DNA of 35,318 nt, from NCBI GenBank assembly GCA_016872595.1, contig VGZJ01000026.1:1-35318 (forward strand), given 5' to 3'. Made by a program: the position numbers and the translations under genes. This stretch comes from Planctomycetota bacterium. Lineage in GTDB: Bacteria; Planctomycetota; Planctomycetia; Gemmatales; Gemmataceae. The stretch's first letter is position 1. Each line of letters opens with the position of its first letter. Under the pieces are notes generated by a model. It was not told the DNA's origin. It searched no databases and worked only from the letters and a program-made list of their open reading frames with translations. Of this stretch, positions 2,750-29,197 are shown piece by piece.

Positions 2750-3331
2750 GTGACCGAACACGACTGGCTGACCGGCAGCGACTCGCGCCCGATGTTCGAG
2801 TTGGTGCGCAAACACTCGCGCGCTACGCCGCGCGTGTGGCGGCTGTTCATGCACGGGTTCTGGCTGGGCCAACTGCCGTTCATTTTGGAGAAGTCGGCCC
2901 GCGCCGAGTTCCTGCGTCGGATGAACCAGTTGGAGAAGTGGGCCGACACCGGGCGCGGCCCGCGCCGCCGCTATCTGAACGTGTTCATGGACCGCGACGC
3001 GGAGGAGGCGATGCGCCGCACCGTGGGCGTGGCGTCGCAGCAAGGCCCGTCGTGGAAGACCGCGTTCCAGCGCCAGAGCGACCTGTTGCGCGAGCTGTTC
3101 GGGAACCCGTTCCGCCCGGTCGAACTCGACCCGGATTGGCTCACCACCGACGTGCTTCTGCTCGCGCAGGGCATCTACGACGACAAGGCGTTCGACCGGA
3201 TGCCGATTCTGGCCGACGCGCTGCAAGACGCCGGCTGCGCCACCGACGACGTGCTGAACCACTGCCGCGACGCGACCGCTACCCACGTCCGCGGCTGCTG
3301 GATGCTGGATTTGCTGTTGGGGGAAGGGTGA
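2750..3331 (+). CDS. Planctomycete hypothetical protein
   Basis: This 193-residue cytoplasmic protein has a GTG start 3 bp after the nadD stop, indicating translational coupling. It begins TEHDWLTGSDSRPMFELV and has a C-terminal block GNPFRPVELDPDWL, then DRMPILADALQDAGC, DDVLNHCR and HVRGCWMLDLLLG. From memory, the combination of DWL...PM at the N-terminus with GNPFRP and DRMPILADALxDAGC at the C-terminus is a recurrent uncharacterised protein type in Gemmata-like genomes. The middle of this copy (residues about 30-95) differs from the Cys-rich middle I associate with the family. No catalytic motif or membrane segment is visible and the function is unknown. Confidence 0.8.
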   Translation: MTEHDWLTGSDSRPMFELVRKHSRATPRVWRLFMHGFWLGQLPFILEKSARAEFLRRMNQLEKWADTGRGPRRRYLNVFMDRDAEEAMRRTVGVASQQGPSWKTAFQRQSDLLRELFGNPFRPVELDPDWLTTDVLLLAQGIYDDKAFDRMPILADALQDAGCATDDVLNHCRDATATHVRGCWMLDLLLGEG

Positions 3332-3380
3332 CGCGCCAGAGTAGTAGGCACACGGAGTGTGCCTACTACTCTGGCGCGTC
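3330..3380. terminator. Near-perfect 24-bp hairpin between convergent genes
   Basis: The arms 3330-3353 and 3357-3380 are perfectly complementary, leaving a 3-nt loop (GGA). The core is AGTAGTAGGCACAC. The stem includes the last two bases of the upstream stop codon. No T-run follows on either strand, so it may be a bidirectional factor-dependent terminator, or a small palindromic mobile element lodged at the convergent border. Confidence 0.75.
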
Positions 3381-15252: not shown

Positions 15253-17742
15253 CTACGCCCCGTAGTCGATCTCTTCCACGCTCTTGAGCGTGTTCTTGAA
15301 GATGAACGCGCGGCGGTCTTGAACCTCTTTGCCCATCAGCGTGCGGAACATCTCTTCGGCTTTGAAGGCGTCGTTCAGCGTCACCTTCAACAGCGTGCGG
15401 TGTTCGGGGTTGAGCGTGGTGGCCCACAGTTCTTCCGGGTCCATCTCGCCCAGCCCTTTGAACCGCGTGATCGAGATGCCCTTTTCGCCCAGCCGCCGCA
15501 CTTCGAGCGGCAGCTCGCGCAGGCTCACGAGTTCCTTGCGGCTGTCGCCGTGTTCGAGGGTGAAGCGCACGGGCGGCTCGCGTCCGGCGACGCGCGGCAG
15601 CGGCACGAGGTCCGCGGCGGCGAACTCCAGCCCCTTCAGCTTGACGAGCGTGCGGTTCAGGGCCTTCAGTTCGTGCCACTCGTCGAGGGTGTAGTCCTCG
15701 CCCACGACCGGCTCGCGCGTCAGTTCGGCCGCGAGCGTGGTCTTGAACGCGCTCACCTCGTCGGTGGAGCGGAACCAGTGGTCCCCGCCCTTCGCGCGGA
15801 TGTGGTACGAGGGGAACGCGCCGTCGGTCGCCGTGAAGTCTTCGAGGGTGCGCCCGCGGCGCTCCAACCCGACGACGGCGGTCTCGGCCTCGGCGAGCAG
15901 CGGGAGCAACTTGGCGAGGTCGGCCGCGGCGAGCGCGCGGTCGGTGCCGGTGCCGCGCCCGGCGGCGCTGACGCGCAGGGCCGTGCCCTCCAGCCCGCGG
16001 TTCGTTAGTTCGGCGGTCATCTCTTCGCGCGTCTGCACGAACCGCGTGTTCTTCTTCTGCGTGACCTTGAACAGCGGCGGGCGCGCGACGAACACGTGCC
16101 CGGCCTCGATGAGCTTGCGCATCTGGCGGAAGAAGAACGTGAGCAGCAGCGTGCGGATGTGCTGCCCGTCCACGTCCGCGTCGGTCATGATAATCACCTT
16201 CCCGTAGCGGACCTTGCTCACGTCCTCCACGTTCTCAATGTCCACGCCGATGGCCGCGATGAGCGCGGAGATTTCGTTGTTCTCCAACAGCTTTTCGAGG
16301 CGGGCCTTCTCGACGTTCAGCACCTTACCGCGCAGGGGCAAGATGGCTTGGAACATGCGGTTCCGCCCGCTCTCGGCGCTGCCGCCGGCGGAATCACCTT
16401 CGACGAGGAACAGCTCGCTCTTGTCGCGCTCGCGCGAGGTGCAGTCGTAGAGCTTGCCGGGTAGCCCGCCGCCGCTCAGCGCGGTCTTGCGGTCCTTGAG
16501 GGCGTCGCGGGCCTTCTTCGCCGCGATCCGCAGCTCCGCGGTCAGCGCCACCTTCTTGCAGATGCGCGTCGCTTCCTTCGGGTTCTTCTCCAAGTACTCC
16601 GAGAGGAAGTCGTACACGACGCTGTTGACGATGCCCTCGACTTCGGGGTTGTTCAGCTTGATCTTGGTTTGCGACTCGAACAGCGGGTCCGGGTGCGCGA
16701 GGCTGACGACCGCCGTGAGGCCGGCGCGGAAGTCCTCGCCCTTCACTTCGAGGTCGGGCTTGAAGTGCCCTTCCTTCTTGCCGTAGGCGTTGATGGCCTT
16801 TGTCAGCCCGGCGCGGAACCCGCTGAGGTGCGTACCGCCCACGGGATTGTAGGCGTTGTTCGTGTAGCAGCGGATGCGCTCGTCGTCGCCGTTGGTGTAC
16901 TGGAGCGCGACCTCGACCGCGATCTTGAGGCCCATGCCCTGCGTTTCGGGCGTGGTGTGTTCGACCTCTTTCTGAACGTAAATCGCCGTGTGTTCCGCCT
17001 TCTCGCCGCTCGTCTCGTTCAGCCAGACGACGTACTCGGCGATGCCGCCGACGAACTCGAAGTGCGCCGTCTTCGGATCCGGCTTCTCGCGCTCGTCCAC
17101 GAGGGTCAGCGCCAAGCCCTTGCACAGGTAGGCGATTTCGCGGAAGCGGTCTTCGAGCGTGGTGTAATCGAACTCGAGCGCGCCGAAGAACTCCGCGAGC
17201 GGGTCCGGGCGGAAGGTGATCGTGGTGCCGCGCGCGCCGGCGGGCGCGGGGCCGAGGTCTTGGAGCGCGCTGGTGGCGTACCCGCGCTCGAACTCCATCT
17301 TGTGGACGCGCCCGTCGCGCCGCACCTCCACCTCGCACCACTCGGACAGCGCATTCATAGCCTTCGCGCCCATCCCGTGCAGACCGAGCGAGACGCGGTA
17401 CGCCGCGTTGTCGAACTTGCCGCTGTTCCCGGCGACCGTGAGCGCCTCTTCGAGCGCGCTCTTGCCGGTGTCCTTCTTGATGCCGACCGGGATGCCGCGC
17501 CCGTCGTCGGCCACGGTAATGGAGCCGTCGTCGTGAACGGTAACGCGGATGCTCTTGCAGTGCCCCGCGAGCCACTCGTCGACGGAGTTGTACACGATCT
17601 CGTACACGAGGTGGTGCAGCCCCGCGGACTGCGTGTTCCCGACGTACATGCCGGGGTTCTGGCGGATGTGGGCGGCGTCCTTGAGGCTCTTCATGTGAGC
17701 CTCGGTGTATTCCCCAACGGCCGGCGTCGTCTCGGTGCTCAT
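15253..17742 (-). CDS. gyrB: DNA gyrase subunit B
   Basis: GyrB is the ATPase subunit of gyrase, which introduces negative supercoils. The 829-residue protein has the GHKL ATPase elements YEIVYNSVDEWLAGH, DDGRGIPVG and GLHGMGAKAMNALS, the transducer domain with the QTKIKLNN lysine loop, the TOPRIM block LFLVEGDSAGGSAESGRNR and IIMTDADVDGQHIRTLLLTF, and the C-terminal RFKGLGEMDPEELWATTLNP. Between TOPRIM and this tail lies an insertion of about 170 residues, similar in placement to that of proteobacterial GyrB. ParE is an alternative, but the position next to dnaN and dciA favours GyrB. The ATG at 17742 has GAGGAC about 10 bp upstream. It is the last gene of the dnaA-dnaN-dciA-gyrB block; gyrA is not adjacent. 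Confidence 0.93.
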   Translation of the reverse strand: MSTETTPAVGEYTEAHMKSLKDAAHIRQNPGMYVGNTQSAGLHHLVYEIVYNSVDEWLAGHCKSIRVTVHDDGSITVADDGRGIPVGIKKDTGKSALEEALTVAGNSGKFDNAAYRVSLGLHGMGAKAMNALSEWCEVEVRRDGRVHKMEFERGYATSALQDLGPAPAGARGTTITFRPDPLAEFFGALEFDYTTLEDRFREIAYLCKGLALTLVDEREKPDPKTAHFEFVGGIAEYVVWLNETSGEKAEHTAIYVQKEVEHTTPETQGMGLKIAVEVALQYTNGDDERIRCYTNNAYNPVGGTHLSGFRAGLTKAINAYGKKEGHFKPDLEVKGEDFRAGLTAVVSLAHPDPLFESQTKIKLNNPEVEGIVNSVVYDFLSEYLEKNPKEATRICKKVALTAELRIAAKKARDALKDRKTALSGGGLPGKLYDCTSRERDKSELFLVEGDSAGGSAESGRNRMFQAILPLRGKVLNVEKARLEKLLENNEISALIAAIGVDIENVEDVSKVRYGKVIIMTDADVDGQHIRTLLLTFFFRQMRKLIEAGHVFVARPPLFKVTQKKNTRFVQTREEMTAELTNRGLEGTALRVSAAGRGTGTDRALAAADLAKLLPLLAEAETAVVGLERRGRTLEDFTATDGAFPSYHIRAKGGDHWFRSTDEVSAFKTTLAAELTREPVVGEDYTLDEWHELKALNRTLVKLKGLEFAAADLVPLPRVAGREPPVRFTLEHGDSRKELVSLRELPLEVRRLGEKGISITRFKGLGEMDPEELWATTLNPEHRTLLKVTLNDAFKAEEMFRTLMGKEVQDRRAFIFKNTLKSVEEIDYGA

Positions 17743-17858: not shown

Positions 17859-18170
17859 CTACCACGCGGCGGCGCGGAACTTCAGGTCGGTAAGCGTCAC
17901 ACCGGGCATGGCGGCCCGCAGTTTCGTGAGAAGCGCGCGCTTGTGGAACTGGGCCAGTTCCGACATCAGCACCGCGTTGCGCACCGCGACCTCCATCACC
18001 CCGCGCTTGATGACCAGAACTTGCGTGTCCTTCAGCCACTCCGCGCCGGCCGCGGTCGCCCACGCCGACTCCAGCCGCAGCCGGTCGTTCTTCCGCCCCC
18101 ACCCGCGGGACGTGAACAGCCGGCCGAGGATGTCGGCGAGGTTCTCCGGGCCTTTGTTGTCGTTCGCCAT
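17859..18170 (-). CDS. dciA: DUF721 / DciA-type replicative helicase factor
   Basis: This 103-residue protein of the DUF721 family (DciA) acts in loading or operation of the DnaB helicase in bacteria without DnaC or DnaI loaders. Visible family features are LADILGRLFTSRGWGRK near residues 11-27, LRLESAWATAAGAEWLKDTQ with the conserved W...AG pattern, LVIKRGVMEVAVRNAVLMSEL with the V.V.N..L.SEL core, and a final LKFR. It is on the short side for the family and consists essentially of the folded domain. It lies between dnaN and gyrB, where the order dnaN-recF-DUF721-gyrB is common in other phyla; recF is not present. The spacers on both sides contain hairpins. Confidence 0.88.
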   Translation of the reverse strand: MANDNKGPENLADILGRLFTSRGWGRKNDRLRLESAWATAAGAEWLKDTQVLVIKRGVMEVAVRNAVLMSELAQFHKRALLTKLRAAMPGVTLTDLKFRAAAW

Positions 18171-18186: not shown

Positions 18187-18253
18187 GCCTTCTGTAGCCG
18201 GGGCTACGCGACACGCTCAGCTTCCGGGGTCACAGACCCCGGCTACAGAAGGC
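18187..18253. repeat. Inverted repeat between dnaN and dciA (CTTCTGTAGCCGG family)
   Basis: The perfect 17-bp arms GCCTTCTGTAGCCGGGG at 18187-18203 and 18237-18253 flank a 33-nt loop. The right arm ends 2 bp from the dnaN stop codon. The outer sequence CTTCTGTAGCCGG is shared with the element at 24425-24501. Confidence 0.85.
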
Positions 18254-18255
18254 AA

Positions 18256-19386
18256 TCAGCCCGTCAGCGGCATGACGAGGTACGAATAGTCGTCGCCGCA
18301 AGTGAACAGCGCGGCCCGCGCGCCGGTGGACATTTCCAGCACCACGGTCGGCTCGCCCTCGAGCGCGCGCAGGAACTCGATCAGGTACTGCGGGTCGAAG
18401 GCGATTTCGGTGCGCGGGCCGGTGTGGTCCGGCAAGTCGAGCGTGACTTCGCTGGACCCGGTGTTCGCGCCGCGGGCCTTCATCGTGACGCGCCCGGCGT
18501 CGAACGTCATGTCCACGCGCATGCTCTCGTCGTCCGTCATGATCGCCGCTTGGCGCACGCGCGACAGGAACGCATCCACCGGCAGCGGGATCCGCTGCGT
18601 CGCTTCCTTCTTGGTCTTCGAGATAATCTCGCGGTACGGTGGGAACTTGCCCTGCACCAGCGACGTGTAGATCATCGCGCGCTCGGTCTGGAACAGCGCG
18701 TCGTTGGTGCGCAGCCCGACGCGGACCAGTTCGTTGTCGTCGGTCAGGTTCCGTTCGAGGATGCCGACCGTTTTGAGTGGGACGAGGTGAACGGCCTTCA
18801 CGGTGTCGGCCGGGCCGTACACGGTGGCCGGCCCCGAACACACCGCGAGCCGCTTTGTGTCGGTCGCGATCAGGCGCGTCGTCTTCCCTTCCGCTTCCCA
18901 CAGCACGCCGGTCAGGGCGAACTTCGCGGTCGTGTCCTTCTTGTCCGCGGCGAACGCCGTGCGCTTGATGAGCGTGCGGAGCGTGCCCGCGGTCACCTCG
19001 TGGTAGCGCCCGCCGTCGTCGAACGCCGGGATGTCCGGGAACTCGTTCACGTCGAGGCTCGGCATCTCGTACCGGCCGCCGGCCCGCGCGTGGATCGCGT
19101 CCTTCCCCGCGTCGAGGCTGATTTCGGGAACGGTGCTCTCGCGCAGAATCTGGATGAGTTGGTCCTTCGGCAGAATGCACGAGCCGGCGCGGGCGACCGT
19201 AACGCCGCGCAGCTCGTAGCGAATGCCGACGCCCTGTGTCGGATCGAAGGCAACGAGCAAGAGTGCGTCGTCGTGAGCCGTGGCCTTGAAGTTCTTGAGG
19301 GCCGGGATCGTGGTGTGTGCGGGCACGGCTTGGGCGACCGCCTGACACGCGGTCAGCAAGCTGTCCTTCTGACACGTCAGCTTCAT
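18256..19386 (-). CDS. dnaN: DNA polymerase III sliding clamp (beta subunit)
   Basis: DnaN is the ring-shaped processivity clamp of the replicase. The 376-residue length and three-domain pattern match the family. The N-terminus is MKLTCQKDSLLTACQAVAQA with HTTIPALKNF; mid-protein segments include AKFALTGVLWEAEGKTTRLI followed by ATDTKRLAV; the C-terminus contains FDPQYLIEFLRAL and ends YSYLVMPLTG, the usual LVMP(L/M) end of bacterial clamps. The ATG at 19386 fits the family N-terminus; the frame is open upstream to 19716 through the origin-like spacer but those codons are not conserved. It is followed by dciA after 85 bp. Confidence 0.95.
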   Translation of the reverse strand: MKLTCQKDSLLTACQAVAQAVPAHTTIPALKNFKATAHDDALLLVAFDPTQGVGIRYELRGVTVARAGSCILPKDQLIQILRESTVPEISLDAGKDAIHARAGGRYEMPSLDVNEFPDIPAFDDGGRYHEVTAGTLRTLIKRTAFAADKKDTTAKFALTGVLWEAEGKTTRLIATDTKRLAVCSGPATVYGPADTVKAVHLVPLKTVGILERNLTDDNELVRVGLRTNDALFQTERAMIYTSLVQGKFPPYREIISKTKKEATQRIPLPVDAFLSRVRQAAIMTDDESMRVDMTFDAGRVTMKARGANTGSSEVTLDLPDHTGPRTEIAFDPQYLIEFLRALEGEPTVVLEMSTGARAALFTCGDDYSYLVMPLTG

Positions 19387-19729
19387 GGCCGTCTCCTCTT
19401 CCCGTCCGTGGGTTTGGGTCTTTGTTCGTTGTGCTTGGGCCGCGGAACCAGATACCTTTAGTTCTTGATTCTTAACAACCAGTAGCAGTAGTAAAGCGAA
19501 GCCGGTTTCTGGCGCGCACTCTTCGTTCGTGCGCCGTAAGCCTTGTTTCACAAGCGAATCGTTCGCGCGGGCACCTGTGGAAAACGTGGCGCGCGACTGG
19601 CGCGCCCGTGTTGCCCCGCGGCGCGCGATCCGGGGCCGTTGTTCGGTGTTCGTAACTCGGACCCGTGCGCGCCAGTTGCGAAAGCCCGCGCGCCAGTCGC
19701 GCGCCACGTTTTCCACAGGGTGCGCGCCG
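19387..19729. other. Candidate chromosomal origin (oriC) in the dnaA-dnaN spacer
   Basis: This 343-bp gene-free spacer lies between the dnaA stop and dnaN start, a common oriC location. It holds a perfect 32-bp inverted repeat (19574-19605 with 19688-19719) separated by 82 bp. Each outer end carries a TTTTCCACA box, one mismatch from the Escherichia coli DnaA box TTATCCACA, with the boxes in opposite orientation. An AT-richer stretch near 19451-19497 (with CTTTAGTTCTTGATTCTTAA) could be the unwinding element. The dnaN promoter should also lie here. The assignment is inference from position and motifs; an origin upstream of dnaA, in the AT-rich 20777-20860, is the alternative. Confidence 0.6.
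19574..19719. repeat. Perfect 32-bp inverted repeat capped by DnaA boxes
   Basis: The arms 19574-19605 and 19688-19719 are exact inverted copies beginning CCTGTGGAAAACGTGGCGCG and ending GACTGGCGCGC. A third partial copy, GCGCGCCAGT, begins near 19667 in direct orientation to the right arm. The DnaA-box-like 9-mers are at 19576-19584 (minus) and 19709-19717 (plus). Confidence 0.9.
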
Positions 19730-20776
19730 TCATTTCAGCACCGTGCGAACGGCACGCACGGTTTGAGCCAACCCCGGATCGTTCGCGCAATCGGTTTCGA
19801 TCTTCCGGCAGGCGTGCAATACGGTGCTGTGGTCGCGCGCGAAGGCCGCGCCGAGTCGCGGGAGCGAGAGGCCCGTTAGCTCGCGGGCGAGGTAAATCGC
19901 CACCTGCCGCGCTCGCATCACGCCGCGGAGCCGGCTCGCGCCCAGTAGGTCGGCTTCCTTCACGCCGAACGCCGCGGCCACACGCTTGACGATCTCCGAA
20001 ACGCCGGGCGCGGCCGATGTCGGTTGCCCGGTTCCGGCGAGCGCCTGTTCCACGTTCGCCCGAGTCATCGGACCCGGGAACGCCTTCGCGACCTGTGCCA
20101 AGTTTTGGAGCGAGCCGAGCGCGGCCCGCACCCCGCTGGTCGCGCGTTCGGCGAGGGCGTCGAGCGCGTCCGGGGTCAGGCGCAGCCCCTTCGCGGTGGC
20201 GGCGTCGGCGAGGACCGCGCGGCGGCTCGCGACGGCGAGGGGTTCCAGTTGAACGACCAACCCGGCGGCGAGGCGCGAGGTGAACCGCTGCGGCAGGTGC
20301 GGCAGCCCCGCGGGGCCGGCGCTGGCGGTGGCGACGGTCGCGCGCCGCCGGGCCGCGCGCCGGTCGATCAGGTCAGAGGCCGCGTCCGCGGCGCGCCCGG
20401 ACAGGTGTTGAACGTCTTCGAGCGCGAGCAGGTCGCAGTCGAGCAGGTCGCGGTCGGTTAGGCTCTCGTCGGGCGCGCGGGCGAGGTCGCCAACGGACAC
20501 GACGCGCACGGTGAGGCCGTCGGGCGCGGCCGAAAGGTGCGCCGCGACCGCCGCGAGCAATCGCGTTTTGCCGGTGCCCGGCGGCCCGTGCAGTACGAGC
20601 GGCGCGGCCGGCGGGCGCTTGTGCGCCGCGACCGCGCGACACTGGGCGCGGGCCGCGCGGGCGGCCGACTTGTTTTCGGGGAGAACGAGGAAGCCGTGCC
20701 ACCGCGGACCCGTCGCCGGGGCGTCCCGGTGCGGCTCATCCGTGAGTGAAATCGGCGTCCGCGAAGAGCTGTTCAT
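19730..20776 (-). CDS. dnaA: Chromosomal replication initiator DnaA, lacking domains I and II
   Basis: DnaA is the AAA+ protein that opens the replication origin. This copy is 348 residues, against about 450 in most bacteria. Only about 28 residues precede the AAA+ start (GFLVLPENKSAARAARAQ), so the usual domain I, which contacts DnaB, and the domain II linker are missing. Walker A is HGPPGTGKTRLL (63-74). Walker B reads LLALEDVQHL, with Glu where the family normally has the first Asp of DDIQ. Domain IV is intact: ADLLGASRLRGVMRARQVAI and the signature LGAAFARDHSTVLHACRKI for DnaA-box binding. Location beside dnaN supports the main initiator rather than a Hda-like or DnaA paralog, which would lack domain IV. 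Confidence 0.92.
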   Translation of the reverse strand: MNSSSRTPISLTDEPHRDAPATGPRWHGFLVLPENKSAARAARAQCRAVAAHKRPPAAPLVLHGPPGTGKTRLLAAVAAHLSAAPDGLTVRVVSVGDLARAPDESLTDRDLLDCDLLALEDVQHLSGRAADAASDLIDRRAARRRATVATASAGPAGLPHLPQRFTSRLAAGLVVQLEPLAVASRRAVLADAATAKGLRLTPDALDALAERATSGVRAALGSLQNLAQVAKAFPGPMTRANVEQALAGTGQPTSAAPGVSEIVKRVAAAFGVKEADLLGASRLRGVMRARQVAIYLARELTGLSLPRLGAAFARDHSTVLHACRKIETDCANDPGLAQTVRAVRTVLK

Positions 20777-23434: not shown

Positions 23435-23537
23435 GCCGCCCGATTAGCGCAGAACAGACACGATCAGACAAGAACCGAGATTGATTTGAACGCGGTCTTC
23501 TGTCTTGATCGTGTCTTCTCTGTGTTGATCGTGCGGC
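23435..23537 (-). repeat. 103-bp dispersed imperfect palindrome, copy 1
   Basis: The element starts GCCGCACGATCAACACAGAG when read on the minus strand from 23537 and ends with the inverted form of that sequence at 23435. It aligns over its full length, with roughly 80 percent identity by eye, to 29093-29197. It lies between the DUF1501 and alkD-like genes, and the alkD-like ribosome-binding site follows about 15 bp after its end. Confidence 0.8.
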
Positions 23538-24405: not shown

Positions 24406-24424
24406 TTCCCTTCAACTGCAACTT

Positions 24425-24501
24425 CTTCTGTAGCCGGCCTCTGTGAGGCCGGTGCGATTTGTCTGGTGACGCTCCGGCCTCACAGAGGCCGGCTACAGAA
24501 G
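24425..24501. repeat. Perfect 28-bp inverted repeat between tRNA-Ser and ruvB
   Basis: The arms 24425-24452 and 24474-24501 are exact inverted copies starting CTTCTGTAGCCGGCCTCTGT, with a 21-nt loop. Each arm contains the inner palindrome GGCCTCTGTGAGGCC. It is located between convergent transcripts and may terminate both. The outer CTTCTGTAGCCGG is shared with 18187-18253. Confidence 0.88.
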
Positions 24502-24506
24502 ACCGC

Positions 24507-29092: not shown

Positions 29093-29197
29093 GCCGCACG
29101 ATCAACGCAGAGAAAGACACGATCCAGACAGAAGGCAGGGTTCAAGACAAACTCGGCTTTGGTCTGATCGTGTTTTTCTCTGTGTTTATCGTGCGGC
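29093..29197 (+). repeat. 105-bp dispersed imperfect palindrome, copy 2
   Basis: The terminal arms of about 35 bp (29093-29128 and 29163-29197, outermost GCCGCACGAT) are inverted with a few mismatches. The whole element matches 23435-23537 in reverse orientation. It fills the spacer between ispF and cysS, and its right arm supplies the last codons and the TAA stop of ispF. Confidence 0.85.

Follow-up and report, generated by a model that had tools for sequence, protein, structure and literature searches.

In Escherichia coli, the replication origin oriC is described in the accessible part of PMC5742627 as an array with six DnaA boxes pointing one way and five the other, with the strong R1 and R4 boxes at its ends and neighbouring sites 2-4 bp apart. 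For the basal unwinding system (BUS) of B. subtilis, the available portion of PMC8287927 gives the rule of a DnaA box within 16 bp of at least three DnaA-trios, where the box may differ at no more than two positions from TTATCCACA or a species-specific box. Searches of the open-access literature yielded no paper on an origin of the kind described below in planctomycetes, or on paired DnaA proteins there: dnaA is mentioned just as the start of numbering in the available sections of PMC5177795 and PMC13092639, the subject of PMC4072686 is an armatimonad, and the accessible text of PMC5835720 contains nothing on such origins or paired DnaAs.

The locus compared here lies in a stretch of 35,318 nucleotides from a planctomycete of the family Gemmataceae, which was analysed as a whole and is called the window. 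As far as the E. coli origin is covered in the above source, the locus resembles it in having strong opposed boxes at its ends, weaker inward sites in two opposed half-arrays, and adjacent sites separated by one helical turn (a step of ~11 bp in the window). It differs in that the array is shorter and near-symmetric, with 133 bp from box to box and arms identical over 32 bp, in that the inner sites are GGCGCGC, and in that the trio and the AT-rich tract are located 90 bp beyond one of the boxes and not at the R1 edge. As in the basal unwinding system outlined in the same part of PMC8287927, a run of trios has a site at a distance of 15 bp and AT-rich DNA on its far side, but the trio-adjacent site is GCGCGCCA and not a box within two mismatches of TTATCCACA. 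Read from its sequence, the locus appears to combine a compact mirrored DnaA array of the E. coli type with an unwinding module of the B. subtilis type.

Gene setting and identity of the probable origin

The dnaA-dnaN spacer is very probably the chromosomal replication origin, oriC, an identification that had been put forward as a candidate in a sequence-only reading of the window and is now backed by the dnaA-dnaN-dciA-gyrB setting, by the conserved opposed boxes and trio, and by a change in GC skew at the locus, seen in the window as well as in two of the four relatives sampled. On the minus strand, the gene for a short DnaA is followed by the 343-bp spacer, dnaN, dciA and gyrB (Table 1), and two exact DnaA boxes are clustered in the intergenic region between dnaA and dnaN. 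Among the relatives, the skew minimum that had been proposed as a check was clear in one, local in a second, weak in a third and absent in the fourth. Cumulative skew in the window is lowest at 17-20 kb. Among the relatives, for which skew was taken from 20-kb samples, the clearest case is G010, with 13 of 14 samples negative across the last 275 kb before the locus and nine of ten positive across the first 200 kb after it. In G026 the change from -0.043 to +0.028 is a local switch, with mixed signs farther out; in G011 the change (-0.002 to +0.054) is weak and signs are irregular elsewhere, and the samples of G051 show no usable pattern.

Table 1. Coordinates of the probable origin region and its neighbouring genes in the window
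Feature	Position	Strand	Remark
gyrB	15253..17742	-	
dciA (helicase operator)	17859..18170	-	
dnaN (sliding clamp)	18256..19386	-	
AT-rich tract, probable unwinding region	19450..19479		composition
DnaA-trio, CAGTAGCAGTAGTAA on +, TTACTACTGCTACTG on gene strand	19480..19494	+	exact in 11/26 family spacers
Trio-side site, TGGCGCGC on +, GCGCGCCA on gene strand	19510..19517	+	15 bp from trio
32-bp arm, dnaN side	19574..19605		exact reverse complement of other arm
Outer DnaA box TTTTCCACA, dnaN side	19576..19584	-	exact; 133 bp from partner box, conserved spacing
Phased inner site TGGCGCGC	19587..19594	+	11 bp inward of box; G invariant at this offset, 28/28 segments, both arms
Phased inner site TGGCGCGC	19598..19605	+	further 11 bp inward
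Phased inner site CGGCGCGC	19619..19626	+	further 21 bp inward
Phased inner site TGGCGCGC	19667..19674	-	mirror of 19619-19626, 21-bp step likewise
Phased inner site TGGCGCGC	19688..19695	-	in phase with box
Phased inner site TGGCGCGC	19699..19706	-	in phase with box
32-bp arm, short-dnaA side	19688..19719		exact reverse complement of other arm
Outer DnaA box TTTTCCACA, short-dnaA side	19709..19717	+	exact
Short DnaA, 348 aa: strong HTH, weak AAA+ match, shortened single-strand-binding motif	19730..20776	-	domain matches, alignment

Inverted repeat and outer boxes

The two arms in the spacer are exact 32-bp reverse complements with 82 bp between them, and each carries an exact TTTTCCACA box, the two in opposed orientation, that begins 2 bp inside the outer end of the arm. 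This is as the sequence-only reading had described it, and its AT-rich tract at 19451-19497 was confirmed as well (64% AT versus 37% for the spacer). When the 343-bp spacer was dinucleotide-shuffled 300 times, no perfect inverted repeat exceeded 12 bp, compared with the 32 bp observed. Of the 12 copies of TTTTCCACA in the 6.81-Mb genome, two are in the dnaA-dnaN spacer, and box-like sites with one mismatch allowed number six in the window versus 2.86 expected, a count reached by 8 of 100 shuffles and hence no clear enrichment. Arms that belonged to a common dispersed repeat had been named as evidence against an origin; such a repeat is ruled out, as a 146-bp query has no second copy in the genome (next best match 37 bits, E 0.005) and the arm core TGGCGCGCNNNTGGCGCGC is exact at only two places genome-wide, both in the spacer. 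With one mismatch allowed, this core is found at 13 places versus 19 for the reversed control, so that the looser motif is not enriched genome-wide.

Several inverted repeats were also observed elsewhere in the window. A perfect 24-bp repeat with a 3-bp loop at 3330-3380 has a core, GTGTGCCTACTACT, that occurs 62 times in the genome, often in close opposed pairs (reversed control 0), and is a dispersed palindromic (REP-like) element. The 33-nt repeat at 24424-24502 (97% complementary), with its core GGCCGGCTACAGAAG present 63 times in the genome and its reversed control absent, represents a second dispersed palindromic family, and a stretch related to it is located at 18224-18251, just below dnaN. 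The remaining cases are a 50-nt inverted repeat at 1964-2087, 86% complementary with copies 24 nt apart, and a 60-nt inverted pair at 23458-23517 and 29114-29173, 83% complementary and 5.6 kb apart.

Conservation of the layout in related genomes

In the family, the layout of the origin is conserved while most of its sequence is not. Among the 26 family spacers, namely loci with dnaA and dnaN adjacent, the opposed boxes are 133 bp apart in 25 and 134 bp apart in the remaining one. Conservation of the arms themselves, which had been suggested as a check, did not hold up: perfect 32-bp arms are present in just three of these spacers (L011, L017, L021), and the longest inverted repeat in the others is 9-29 bp and in L024 is not even at the arms, so a conserved long cruciform is ruled out. 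When dnaA-side stretches from the family and the class were scanned, a box pair with at least 16 of 18 matches was identified in 43 of 58, at spacings of 133 bp (28 pairs), 135 bp (8), 134 bp (4) and 123, 124 and 136 bp (one each).

A whole-genome scan for the strict pair, with the gap left free over 31 values, identified it in 47 of 95 family genomes, at one place each, versus 1 of 95 for the reversed control. The overall lengths of these pairs are 142 bp (29 genomes), 143 (9), 144 (3), 141 (1) and 132 (5). Most of them (38 of 47) are on the contig of the short dnaA, within about 1.5 kb of its match, and the other nine are either on a different contig or in genomes with no short gene listed. 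The 48 family genomes that lack the strict pair include many with degenerate or other pairs. In the class sample the strict pattern was found in 44 of 248 genomes, 37 of them in the family, and the seven class matches outside the family, versus three control matches, are near noise.

The five genomes of genus g36 (G080, G081, G084, G085, G086) have opposed boxes that span 132 bp overall versus 142 bp, about one helical turn less, and their inner sites are AT-richer. Box pairs on a contig other than that of the short dnaA were observed in three genomes (G035:C228:62669-62811, G043:C301:33148-33290, G040:C214:757-899), and in some genera the origin may therefore have moved away from dnaA, the assemblies being drafts.

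Phased inner sites and the mirrored array

Inward of the boxes, the window contains six GGCGCGC-type sites in phase with them, three per half at matching 11- and 21-bp steps. Neither these nor a seventh site, at 19510-19517 on the trio side, had been noticed in the earlier reading. Across 28 segments, G is invariant at offsets 1, 12 and 23 inward from the box in both arms; at offset 34 it is present in 28/28 in one arm and 9/28 in the other, and at offset 44 in 27/28 and 26/28. Sites starting with TG are repeated inward from each box with a period of ~11 bp, most of them being TGGCGCGC in the clade of the window. Linkers in the two arms also match within genomes (158 versus 127.5 under permutation, sd 5.5, reached in 0 of 5000), the within-genome match exceeding that to the three nearest relatives in 18 of 28 genomes and falling below it in 8. 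Such covariation would be expected from copying between the arms, from a hairpin and from a shared reader alike.

Judged by these positions, the inverted repeat is two mirrored half-arrays of phased sites, with opposed strong boxes at the ends and weak sites of the same direction inward of each. To describe it as a long palindrome with a box at either end, as the earlier reading did, is right only superficially; the palindrome dissolves into the two arrays, and its perfect form is restricted to the few spacers named above. We are confident, though not certain, that the origin combines a mirrored phased array of putative DnaA sites with a trio module, and an initiator-binding scaffold, which the earlier reading had raised, is the best inference from this anatomy.

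Trio-side site and probable unwinding tract

With the trio consensus taken from the available part of PMC8287927, at least three trios, likewise unnoticed in the earlier reading, are found in TTACTACTGCTACTG at 19480-19494 on the gene strand. In 20 of the 26 family spacers the gap from the end of GCGCGCCA to the trio is exactly 15 bp, the other six having no exact copy, and the distance from the right box to the trio is 79-92 bp in 25 of 26 (for L033 the scan picked a place at 171). In 17 other loci that were scored, GCGCGCCA was found at the trio-side position in none, and a box-like site lies 14-17 bp before the trio in four of them (L163, L165, L166, L172). Since GCGCGCCA differs from TTATCCACA by more than two mismatches and is not a canonical DnaA box, the locus falls outside the published box rule; it would pass only with GCGCGCCA as a species-specific box, which is the hypothesis itself.

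DnaA at the outer boxes probably seeds two head-to-tail filaments, as on the E. coli origin, and these would extend inward across the weaker phased sites. DnaA at the trio-side site would load subunits onto the trio strand, as in the basal unwinding system of B. subtilis, and these subunits would open the AT-rich tract.

Two DnaA proteins

A second, longer DnaA (open frame of 517 aa), which the earlier reading had likewise not noticed, is encoded on another contig of the genome. Both proteins belong with the DnaA family in passing the Pfam cut-offs for Bac_DnaA and Bac_DnaA_C, but unlike the usual DnaA they occur as a pair in one genome, with the strengths of the two domains exchanged: the short DnaA scores 36 bits for AAA+ and 87 bits for HTH and the long one 145 and 56 bits. 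In addition, the single-strand-binding motif of the short one is shortened. On the NCBIfam DnaA equivalog (cut-off 344 bits), the short DnaA reaches 188 bits and a 325-aa piece of the long DnaA 308. A third Bac_DnaA match in the genome (C310) was rejected as a DnaA, as it reads by eye as what is presumably an IstB-like ATPase.

A search with the short DnaA matched every one of the 95 family genomes, in 79 cases at two or more places, and a DnaA C-terminal domain was identified in 148 of 148 class-sample genomes, with two or more in 129 and one in 19. The 19 include the sampled genomes of genus g52 and, in contrast to the bulk of the class, all four sampled members of family f2 of the same order. 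In a tree, the long DnaAs group with the B. subtilis protein (100/99), and the short ones fall into several groups whose shared ancestry is not settled by the tree.

Residues were numbered from an alignment of 30 long and 29 short family DnaAs with B. subtilis DnaA, in which I190 serves single-strand binding and R264 is the arginine finger, according to the accessible part of PMC8287927. The I190 position is occupied by V or L in each of the 30 long DnaAs, and the alignment has a gap there in 17 of the 29 short proteins; the I193 position is a gap in 27 of 29 short ones, and D214 is replaced by E in 29/29 short DnaAs but kept as D in 30/30 long ones. The single-strand-binding motif is thus mostly not intact in the short DnaAs of the family, and as short DnaAs of other families are full length at this motif, its loss belongs to the family of the window. 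Loss of the arginine finger from the long DnaA was rejected, R264 being kept in 29/29 short and 30/30 long proteins, for the latter by gapless MAFFT placement. The recognition helix reads RDH in 28 of 29 short DnaAs, and in the long ones it reads KTH (16), RNH (10) or KNH, KQH, RQH and RSH (one each), so that the canonical D before the conserved His is present in 0/30 and is replaced by T, N, S or Q. The short DnaA of the family has kept the canonical DNA-reading helix and mostly lost the single-strand-binding motif, and the long DnaA has kept this motif with an altered helix.

Possible readers of the inner sites

The helix of the long DnaA was compared with the inner sites in the 31 genomes for which both a box pair and a long DnaA were available. 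Where K stands two residues before the conserved His, the first inner site is of GC type in 17 of 18 genomes, versus 3 of 13 with other residues (one mismatch allowed; Fisher p 6e-5, a value that is not tree-aware). Exact GGCGCGC gives 15/18 versus 2/13 (p 3e-4, again not tree-aware), and exclusion of G035 and G043, which have their pairs away from the short dnaA, gives 16/17 versus 3/12. In lineages without GC sites, the first inner site is mostly TGTTG-, TGTTC- or TGTCG-like at the same offset. The outer boxes and the helix of the short DnaA do not vary along with the inner sites in the family.

Together with the differences in the single-strand-binding motif and the complementary domain scores, this association suggests a division of work, in which two DnaA paralogs, each with a site code of its own, would together fire the origin, a reading to which we give close to an even chance. 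The short DnaA, without single-strand binding, would fix the outer canonical boxes, and the long DnaA, with its re-coded helix, would fill the GGCGCGC sites and grip the trios; the initiator would be a mixed complex, and the inner-site code of the clade would have switched together with one protein. A member of another family (G120) provides a separate case in favour. Against the two-paralog reading, full TGGCGCGC is not enriched before the long dnaA (0 versus 1.1 expected in the 10 of 30 promoters that were anchorable, with boxes at 0 versus 0.7), the match is broken by G059, which has K without a GC site, and by G004, which has R with one, and most K genomes belong to one clade, so that the match may reflect a few events and not 31.

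The same two exceptions and the same clade structure are accommodated by an origin with one reader, which we regard as a serious possibility, somewhat short of even. Here a single DnaA would bind the boxes strongly and the inner sites weakly, with the other DnaA as a regulator, and the GGCGCGC sites would be degenerate DnaA sites shaped by a GC-rich genome, much as inner sites of the E. coli origin match the box poorly (PMC5742627, part available). However, GGCGCGC keeps constant offsets, in the two arms as well as beside the trio, which random drift would hardly produce, and the outer boxes did not drift with the inner sites. A single reader would also leave aside that the short DnaA has mostly lost its single-strand-binding motif and that the helix of the long DnaA is altered.

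We know of no DnaA that reads GGCGCGC, and it is conceivable, if unlikely, that these sites are read by another protein, such as a regulator or DNA methyltransferase-linked control, with DnaA confined to the boxes and trio. Upstream of the long dnaA, TGGCGC occurs 23 times versus 6.5 expected (10 of 30 promoters anchorable; one of five patterns tried), and TTGGCGC and TGGCGCG, from the same promoters and patterns, are likewise enriched. This may hint at a shared reader, and it fits a shared regulator as well as DnaA. The phasing of the GGCGCGC sites with the boxes argues for DnaA instead, as does the GC site at the trio side, where the four other-family origins have box-like sites.

That the arms act as a cruciform or hairpin, as the sequence-only reading had considered, is quite unlikely. 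The predicted single-strand fold is indeed very stable (-74 kcal/mol, z -10.1, 0 of 200 shuffles as good), and the covariation of the arm linkers within genomes fits pairing, but it fits copying between arms or a shared reader too, and as arm length is not conserved in the family, a cruciform is possible and not needed. An origin at the long dnaA, with the spacer serving only as the dnaN promoter region, is highly improbable even though, of the two proteins, the long DnaA is better conserved in the family, and was rejected on skew, as no minus-to-plus switch occurs at the long dnaA in G010 (where it lies ~264 kb before the locus, near a plus-to-minus change) or G026, and on the few boxes upstream, up to one mismatch in 4 of 30 regions, with the exact GC motif in one.

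Implications

The geometry of the box pair provides a simple search pattern for origins of the family, and the locus illustrates how an origin can come to carry a long palindrome that need not act as a cruciform. Bacteria are generally assumed to have a single DnaA as initiator, but most sampled genomes of the class keep two. The class, with the complementary weak points of the two proteins in the family of the window and an origin in which the inner sites have changed but not the outer boxes, would offer a natural experiment on the separate tasks of the parts of DnaA and of oriC.
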